Shown here: one piece after another, positions 52,214-54,090 of the stretch
How the letters are laid out: each line of letters starts with the position of its first letter
Numbering within the stretch: position 1 is the first letter of the stretch
Source of the DNA: Thomasclavelia ramosa DSM 1402
Lineage (GTDB): Bacteria > Bacillota_I > Bacilli_A > Erysipelotrichales > Coprobacillaceae
DNA: 64,000 bases
NCBI RefSeq assembly: GCF_014131695.1
Contig: NZ_CP036346.1
Coordinates: 3,038,001-3,102,000, forward strand
Direction: 5' to 3'
Made by a program: the position numbers and the translations under genes
The notes under the pieces: generated by a model
What the model was told of the DNA's origin: nothing
Seen by the model: only the letters and a program-made list of their open reading frames with translations
The model's database searches: none

Positions 52214-52810
52214 ATGACTGAAAAAGAAAAAATGTTAGCTGGGGAATTATATGATTGTGGCGATGCCGAATTACTTGCTCTATGGCATCGAGCCAAAGAT
52301 CTAGCCCGAGATTATAATCTAACCAATTCTAGCGATACTAAAAGAAAAAGTGAGCTTCTTAATGAATTATTAGGTAAAGTTGGAAACCAATTATGGATTA
52401 CCCCACCTTTTCATGTTGATTATGGCTGTAATATATATTTTGGGAATAACTGCGAAGTTAATATGAATTGTACATTTCTCGATGATAATAAAATTATTAT
52501 TGGTGATAATGTTTTAATTGCTCCAAATGTACAAATATATACCGCTTATCATCCTACTCATTATCTTGATCGTTTTACTATCAGTGAAAATGAAACATTC
52601 AATTTTTGTAAAACACAAACAGCCCCAGTTATTATTGGTAAAAATGTTTGGATTGGCGGGGGAACAATTATTCTACCGGGAGTTACAATTGGTGATAATA
52701 CCGTAATTGGAGCAGGTAGTGTTGTTACAAAAGATATCCCTGCTGATACAATTGCTTATGGCAATCCTTGTAAAGTTCATAAAGCCAATGAACGCAGCAA
52801 AAGTATTTAA
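52214..52810 (+). CDS. Maltose/galactoside O-acetyltransferase-like protein
   Basis: 198 aa left-handed beta-helix hexapeptide protein of the Maa/LacA group: KEKMLAGELYDCGDAELLA at the N-terminus, FHVDYGCNIYFGNNCEVNM (~74-92), the catalytic His in YTAYHPTHYLDR (~117) and C-terminal hexapeptides (VWIGGGTIILPGVTIGDNTV, GAGSVVTKDIPADT). Acetylates the 6-OH of sugars. It starts directly after the HAD stop, without a clear RBS of its own, so it is coupled to that gene. Confidence 0.9.
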   Translation: MTEKEKMLAGELYDCGDAELLALWHRAKDLARDYNLTNSSDTKRKSELLNELLGKVGNQLWITPPFHVDYGCNIYFGNNCEVNMNCTFLDDNKIIIGDNVLIAPNVQIYTAYHPTHYLDRFTISENETFNFCKTQTAPVIIGKNVWIGGGTIILPGVTIGDNTVIGAGSVVTKDIPADTIAYGNPCKVHKANERSKSI

Positions 52811-52811
52811 T

Positions 52812-52948
52812 AAAAAAGAACTAGATTTAACAAATCGTTTGATGTGACCTCAGAAAGTTAGATCAAAAATGATATGTGCCCTGAATTTTAGATACATATC
52901 AAATTCTAACGGTTAGGAGGTCGGTACAGTTAAATCCAGCTCTTTTTA
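52812..52948 (-). terminator. Terminator whose loop holds a miniature element
   Basis: Minus-strand stem: the right arm (AAAAAGAGCTGGATTTAAC, 52929-52947) pairs with the left arm (GTTAAATCTAGTTCTTTTT), with two G-U pairs, and a T-tract follows. Removing the 89-base insert and one copy of its duplicated GTT leaves a five-base loop (AAATC), a normal terminator for the secreted-protein gene at 52951. Confidence 0.7.
52840..52928. mobile_element. 89-bp IS3-like miniature inverted-repeat element
   Basis: Ends are TGATGTGACCTC (left) and TGTACCGACCTC (right, inverted), followed in both by a GTTAGA box: imperfect inverted repeats of ~25 bases. TGnnnnGACC with a downstream GTTAGA is the end style of IS3-family elements. 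It is flanked by a three-base direct repeat, GTT (52837-52839 and 52929-52931), the size expected of an IS3 target duplication. No transposase frame is inside, so it is a non-autonomous derivative. Confidence 0.65.
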
Positions 52949-52950
52949 TT

Positions 52951-54090
52951 TTATTCAATCTTCAAATCAACTAATTCACTGGCATAATCCGTTTTGTAGT
53001 CCCCGTTATATTGCTCACTAAACACTTTTATCTGATAGTTATCATGATCATATTTTTTTGGCAACTCAATTAAAGCAACACCCATTTTAGTAACACTAAT
53101 ATCAGCTAACTGACCATAAGATACAATCTCATTTTGTGTTTTATCAATTATAACTGCACTGAGTAAATCCCCATCGCCTTGGGCACTATAATTAAAACTT
53201 ATTTTATTATTTTCTTTAACCTGATCGCTCACAACTAAGGTTTGTGAAGCATCTTTTAATGTTAAACGATAATCACTAAGTAATTCTTGATGTTCCACGT
53301 CCTGCATTGCTTTGCTCCCGACTACTCCACTGACTTTACCACCTTGGGCTGCAGCAAAAAATAAAACTGCATGAGGATCAAGATTAGCAGTAGCTCTTGC
53401 ACTAAGATGCTCGACAGTAATATCTAATTGTGCAAAAACTCCACATTTAGAGATATATCCCGCTAATTTAGGATCATCTTTAGCAGCTGCTGACAACCAG
53501 TAATAATTCCCCTCCTGACGATAATGACGATCTTCAAGTCCACAACTATTTGAATTCATTATTTTTGCTGTTGGGGCAAAAAATTTATCACCAAATAACT
53601 GTGATTCTATAAATGAATAACTAGTAACAGTAACAACGTCACCACCTGGTTGAGTAGTATTAAATATTACTTCCGCTTCTTTTGGTGATAAAGTTTGAGA
53701 TGCTAACGCAATCTCTGCTTGTCGTAAAGCACTAGTTTCATAGCGATTACTTTCCTGATCAAATGGTGTTGAGGTTTGAAGCTTTGTTGAAATTAATAAA
53801 ATGGATTTAATAGCTTTTCCATCTTCATCAAAAAAGCTAGTTTCTTCCGGATTTAAAATATTCCATTGAAATTGACCATCAGCCCCTAAATATAAAGTTT
53901 CAAACTTCCCGGATGTTCCCCTAGCTATTTTTTCAACAGCCTTATCTGCCATCATCATACTTTGTTTATCTTGTATATTCAAAGTATCGGGATTTTTATA
54001 ATTATTAGCCGGAGCATTATTTTTTAAAAATAATCCTATTAAAGTTACTATAATTACAGTGCAACCAATCTTAAAATATTTTTTAGGCAT
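52951..54090 (-). CDS. Secreted or membrane-anchored protein of unknown function
   Basis: 379 aa. Begins MPKKYFKIGCTVIIVTLIGL, a signal anchor (or a signal with no clear cleavage site), and the rest is extracytoplasmic. A stretch near 190-260 (NSNSCGLEDRHYRQEGNYYW followed by LSAAAKDDPKLAGYISK and DITVEHLSARATANLDPHAV) resembles the DUF6273-type domain found in clostridial surface proteins, in which a YWL motif and a R-A-x-L-x-L/D motif are spaced alike; the match is weak. The C-terminus is beta-rich. GGAGG RBS. It follows the GH13 gene by 43 bases on the same strand and may share its transcript. Confidence 0.5.
   Translation of the reverse strand: MPKKYFKIGCTVIIVTLIGLFLKNNAPANNYKNPDTLNIQDKQSMMMADKAVEKIARGTSGKFETLYLGADGQFQWNILNPEETSFFDEDGKAIKSILLISTKLQTSTPFDQESNRYETSALRQAEIALASQTLSPKEAEVIFNTTQPGGDVVTVTSYSFIESQLFGDKFFAPTAKIMNSNSCGLEDRHYRQEGNYYWLSAAAKDDPKLAGYISKCGVFAQLDITVEHLSARATANLDPHAVLFFAAAQGGKVSGVVGSKAMQDVEHQELLSDYRLTLKDASQTLVVSDQVKENNKISFNYSAQGDGDLLSAVIIDKTQNEIVSYGQLADISVTKMGVALIELPKKYDHDNYQIKVFSEQYNGDYKTDYASELVDLKIE

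Follow-up and report, generated by a model that had tools for sequence, protein, structure and literature searches.

REP palindromic units are the targets of IS1397 and ISKpn1, two insertion sequences (IS) of the IS3 family (PMC1525189). For group IIC introns, the target context is a stem-loop, either of a rho-independent terminator or of an attC site (PMC7923331). Here, we describe a short IS3-derived element in a terminator loop of Thomasclavelia ramosa DSM 1402, found in a window of 64,000 nucleotides (the whole stretch of DNA analysed; unprefixed positions refer to it). Our preferred reading, to which we assign a probability of about 0.84, is that a mini-element of an IS3 clade lies in the loop with a second one nested in it, that the clade prefers hairpin loops as targets, and that the left-end palindrome of such elements extends the hairpin that receives it.

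Results

Anatomy of the 89-bp element

The element (TGATGTGACCTC...GAGGTCGGTACA, 52840-52928, 89 bp) carries GTT at both borders, as an earlier note on this DNA had described, and lies in the loop of a bidirectional terminator separating two convergent genes (Table 1). When the element and one GTT were deleted, the joined flanks AAAAAAGAACTAGATTTAAC-aaatc-GTTAAATCCAGCTCTTTTTAT formed a stem with a five-base loop. This empty-site stem scores 25, compared with 21 for the 99th percentile at random positions; the earlier note was right about both the restored stem and the location of the element. The region 52812-52949 folded better than its shuffles on the two strands (z of -4.7 and -5.8). Since the hairpin lies between two convergent gene ends and its flanks are A-rich or T-rich on both sides, it reads as a bidirectional terminator. 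The stop codon of the acetyltransferase gene lies 1 nt upstream of the terminator arm, and the 379-aa putative secreted protein had no match in Pfam or NCBIfam.

Table 1. Features of the element, its host terminator and the neighbouring genes (window positions)
Feature	Position	Strand	Basis
Maltose-acetyltransferase-like hexapeptide acetyltransferase gene	52214..52810	+	ORF; Pfam Mac and Hexapep
Host terminator 5' arm AAAAAAGAACTAGATTTAAC	52812..52831	.	Sequence; pairs with 52929-52949 in both folds
Ancestral terminator loop, aaatc, 5 bases	52832..52836	.	Sequence; joined flanks folded
GTT, left copy of target duplication	52837..52839	.	Sequence
Outer mini-element, IS right-end-type terminus TGATGTGACCTCAGAAAGTTAGATCAAAAA	52840..52869	-	Matches IS3-family right end TGATGTGACCCCCAAAAGTTAGAC of L041 (G043)
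Nested 32-bp mini-element TGATATGTGCCCTGAATTTTAGATACATATCA, tip of outer hairpin	52870..52901	.	Related 32-mers elsewhere; ends match full-length IS
Outer mini-element, IS left-end-type terminus AATTCTAACGGTTAGGAGGTCGGTACA	52902..52928	-	Matches inner arm and outer terminus of full-length IS left ends
GTT, right copy of target duplication; also begins terminator 3' arm	52929..52931	.	Sequence
Host terminator 3' arm GTTAAATCCAGCTCTTTTTAT	52929..52949	.	Sequence and folds
379-aa putative secreted or lipo-protein gene, convergent on terminator	52951..54090	-	ORF

The earlier note treated the 89 bp as one unit, but its sequence shows two nested elements: an IS3-derived mini-element of 57 bp, whose IS orientation is the minus strand, and, at the tip of its hairpin, an IS3-type mini-element of 32 bp. 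The TG..CA ends of the middle 32 bp (TGATATGTGCCC...GATACATATCA) are those of a second IS3 subfamily and match its full elements in genomes G027 and G070 (left end TGATATGTACCC, right end GGGTACATATCA). The junctions of the 32-mer share a 2-bp overlap and show no clean 3-bp duplication, so we infer the order of the insertion events at this site; most simply, the 32-bp mini-element would have inserted later, by the same rule, at the hairpin tip of the first.

Alternatively, the 89 bp might be a single indivisible structured element, for instance a regulatory RNA whose native apical hairpin is the 32-mer. It does fold strongly as a single rod, and the three-part layout recurs once in the same genome (L002 1475-1564, G000:C1 near 1137270), where a degenerate outer mini-element and a related 32-mer sit in the hairpin TTGCTCAAAT/ATTTGAGTAA downstream of metA. 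However, most relatives of the outer element measure 53-54 bp and lack the 32-mer, 32-mers related to it occur in other outer contexts (besides L002, L270 of the same genome, L250 of G043 and L271 of G151, the last three unrelated to the one here), and an Rfam search of the element gave no match, which makes this interpretation improbable. An exact scan of the genome contig collection with the 32-mer returned no match, and neither did searches of plasmid and phage collections. Integron attC sites were considered for the GTTAGA boxes and rejected, because the order of the boxes is reversed and IS3 transposases are encoded by the related full-length elements.

The nested-pair reading has parallels in the same genome. 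At L270 (1220-1251, minus strand; G000:C1:2763549-2763580), a 32-bp mini-element lies at the loop of a hairpin, apparently the left-end hairpin of a further IS subfamily. At L006 (700-2085) and L005 (880-2225), a disrupted full-length second-subfamily IS3 element lies inside a mini-element, which in turn lies inside a terminator; the enclosing mini-elements are different ones, and the duplications seen are CAA for the inner insertion of L006 and TAA for the outer one of L005.

Kinship, copies and empty sites

The IS3 kinship proposed in the earlier note was borne out, since the ends match full-length OrfA/OrfB elements of this family in related genomes. The full-length element of genome G077 is 1533 bp long, is present in several near-identical copies, and encodes OrfA, with an HTH domain, and OrfB, with an rve core. 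Parent OrfB scores 267.7 bits against NF033516, whose cut-off is 160; parent OrfA matches the same model at 4.9e-14 and also HTH_Tnp_1, and orfA and orfB overlap in different frames. The parents have inverted repeats ending in TG..CA and target duplications within the 3-5 bp usual for the IS3 family, and we place them in that family; from their end sequence and gene layout we take them to be IS150-like. IS ends were set by anchored TG..CA, local-alignment end detection having given chance matches. The window element is, as a kind, a MITE of the IS3 family: it has no ORF, shares its ends with full-length IS, is flanked by the GTT duplication and has dispersed relatives.

Copies elsewhere, whose absence the earlier note had named beforehand as refuting its reading, were detected in the same genome and, with model R1, in 53 of the 315 genomes of the order, with up to 13 matches in one related genome; the R1 matches include weak ones, and some are left ends of full-length elements, not mini-elements. 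Related mini-elements are typically 45-55 bp long (for example TGATGTGACCCCCAAAAGTTAGACCAAAATCTAACGATTAGGAGGTCGGTACA in G043). The exact 89 bp are single-copy. Three dispersed copies in the same genome (L002, L003 and L270) are related to the outer unit, the inner unit or both. Our search of this genome found no intact subfamily-1 transposase, and the outer element therefore looks like a relic there.

Two side observations concern copies in other genomes. The G051 contigs of L023, L025 and L027 stop exactly at the element, which suggests an unassembled multicopy full-length IS behind them. In G203, several copies of one IS (L189-L192 and L195) sit at different places on the chromosome with the same terminator sequence around them, as if lodged in a larger repeated element.

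The empty site that the earlier note had hoped to find in relatives exists by position at a sister copy, though not at the window locus, where a direct comparison is precluded because our search of the 8 congeners did not find the secreted-protein gene. The sister copy, L003, follows an iron-dependent alcohol dehydrogenase gene, and an ordinary uninterrupted terminator occupies this position in all seven congeners that carry the gene. These terminators differ in sequence, so that the empty site is positional and not base-by-base. In the same comparison, some rows for the metA locus appeared offset and were left out.

Target sites

The junctions of related insertions fall in hairpin loops, usually those of terminators, and to judge from the sequences at these sites the parent IS clade prefers terminator loops as targets. 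Both this preference and the nesting had escaped the earlier note. About 44 genomes of the host's order yielded 68 non-redundant insertions, 36 of them mini-elements and 32 full-length IS. Minimum-free-energy pairing across the junction was too permissive and discriminated weakly (46-58% in the control); an ungapped stem score was therefore used with two controls, random positions in the same loci and flanks paired across different sites. The median stem score was 16.8 at the 68 sites; random positions gave 9.0 (p=5e-19) and mismatched flanks 10.0 (p=1e-15). The score exceeded the 95th percentile of random positions at 37 of the 68 sites, that is, at only about half; 24 exceeded the 99th. Some sites have flanks that are decayed or ends that are wrongly set. 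An exact 3-bp target duplication was present at 32 of the 68, compared with 3.4% in the control (p=6e-29).

Intact cases include a full-length IS at L139 (AAAAAGAACACaa-TAA[IS]TAA-cGTGTTCTTTTT) and mini-elements at L114 (AAAAAGAGGTCa-ATG[mini]ATG-GACCTCTTTTT) and L098 (AAAAAGCAGTGTT-CGA[mini]CGA-AACACTGCTTTTT). These three sites and L140, L143 and L146, which like L139 are in G077, L196-L198 in G071, and L112 are clean; L107, L127, L129 and L193 have no hairpin. The target hairpins vary in sequence between sites, which is not the pattern of a REP-targeting IS of the IS1397 type.

A held-out set gave a similar picture. It comprised 53 IS from named genomes, mostly Firmicutes, found with the OrfB alignment (Enterococcus, Bacillus and relatives, Lysinibacillus, Peptoniphilus, Acidaminococcus, Acinetobacter, Rheinheimera and others). 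The stem score was above the 95th percentile of random positions for 25 of the 53 and above the 99th for 16 (p=1e-19), the automatic rule having put the ends a few bases inside the true ends in some of the remainder; a target duplication of at least 3 bp was found in 30.

Selection could produce such a distribution without any choice of target by the elements, if other insertions were purged and terminators were left as tolerated intergenic sites. IS are generally depleted from genes, and terminators are intergenic and near-neutral. We consider this explanation very unlikely, as it accounts neither for the position of the junction within the loop nor for insertions nested within other IS, in their end hairpins or mini-elements (L220, L006 and L270), and as IS256 elements of the same order lie in AT-rich flanks, not in hairpin loops. 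Of 16 IS256-family insertions, all with an exact duplication of 8-9 bp, one exceeded the 95th percentile (p=0.16), and the IS3 sites outscored them (p=3e-4). An A-run and a T-run also flank 7 of the 16 IS256 sites, and such flanks are a weaker marker.

Left-end hairpin

The left end of the full-length elements is a hairpin of about 50 bp (TGTACCGACCCCCAAAAGTTAGACCAAGAATCTAACGAATGGAGGTCGGTATTTTTATG). In all 32 non-redundant left ends the folding z was below -2, with a mean of -5.2 (relative to plain base shuffles), and a T-run separates the hairpin from the start codon in 31 of the 32. The inner arm usually contains the purine-rich ribosome-binding region of orfA, but nearly complete pairing of this region is predicted in only 15 of the 32 folds. 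The arms match within each subfamily and differ between subfamilies, and pairing is better between the arms of one element than after arms are swapped (p=1e-8 and 5e-6). This cross-pairing test replaced column-wise covariation, the MAFFT alignment of the left ends being unsuitable. Since the arms co-vary, the hairpin structure is conserved.

Most mini-elements approximate this left-end palindrome, with a complete terminus on the far side and often a right-end-type terminus on the near side. Because they are largely left-end palindrome, the hairpin of a terminator that receives one in its loop would be extended and not broken.

Predicted effect on termination

The earlier note counted a loop of about 97 bases and suggested that termination might fail. 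The arithmetic is correct; the contents of that loop, however, themselves form a hairpin, and on either strand the stem is predicted to close at almost the same energy as without the insert, so that the suggested failure finds no support. In equilibrium predictions the terminator closes at -12.9 kcal/mol with the insert and -13.8 kcal/mol when empty on the plus strand, and at -20.2 and -21.9 kcal/mol, respectively, on the minus strand; in all 72 mini-element folds, likewise equilibrium predictions, the closing energy was unchanged within 4 kcal. By folding prediction, the host hairpin can still form, as the insert folds into its own rod.

A loop grown from 5 to 97 nt might nevertheless break the terminator kinetically, if co-transcriptional closure of the stem lagged behind the U-tract; the stem would close more slowly, and the convergent transcripts would read through and become mutually antisense. 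We think this rather unlikely given the nested hairpin that fills the loop, the small differences in closing energy and a terminator stem that is still nearly perfect. We infer instead that the insertion is neutral for termination.

Discussion

Our analysis points to a parent clade, encoding OrfA with an HTH domain and OrfB with an rve core, that inserts preferentially in hairpin loops, chiefly those of intrinsic terminators. Its targets appear to include the left-end hairpins of its own relatives. In the left-end hairpin, the left inverted repeat pairs with the inner arm, which usually contains the ribosome-binding region of orfA and is followed by three to five T residues and then the ATG. 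This anatomy suggests that the hairpin works as a portable terminator and as a mask of the start site against read-through from outside, which may shield the transposase from outside transcription. If so, insertion would be nearly neutral for the host.

A further, more tentative idea concerns the transposases. They may recognise the structure of the hairpin, as an extruded cruciform or as single-stranded DNA at a terminating polymerase, and not its sequence; the left-end hairpin would then restore the terminator, mask the transposase start and serve as a landing pad. We regard this as possible but doubtful. If true, nesting of elements would result and host transcription would be little affected.

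The results turn a single odd insertion into a testable rule: terminator loops serve as apparently safe sites for a widespread IS3 clade, whose members occur in the host's order, in Bacillus and Enterococcus and in some Proteobacteria. The rule bears on the open question of target choice by structure in DDE transposases, and on how IS spare their hosts and escape activation by read-through. It also matters for annotation, because mini-elements may be hidden in many of the terminators that look long or multi-stemmed. Our search of the open-access literature gave no account of IS3 elements targeting terminator loops; the target rule may nevertheless be recorded already in ISfinder or in subscription reviews. 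As far as can be told, the target rule, the left-end hairpin common to the subfamilies and the nesting that follows from both are new.

The elements resemble IS150-like IS3 elements such as IS1447 in their OrfA/OrfB layout, transposase family, TG..CA repeats and 3-bp duplications; the accessible part of the IS1447 paper mentions neither terminator-loop targeting nor a left-end hairpin (PMC6211511). The mini-elements are short non-autonomous palindromes like MITEs and REPIN-like elements (PMC3116915), but approximate a single left-end palindrome of 45-57 bp and lie in terminator loops. Group IIC introns are retro-elements that insert beside the stem-loop, whereas here a DDE transposase is encoded, insertion is within the loop and the target is duplicated (PMC7923331). 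IS1397 and ISKpn1 share with the present clade the IS3 family and insertion into palindromes, a preference attributed to their transposase (PMC1525189). They target one repeated family, REP, in enterobacteria; in contrast, the clade described here uses terminators of unrelated sequence, which suggests a preference for a structure or a general layout.
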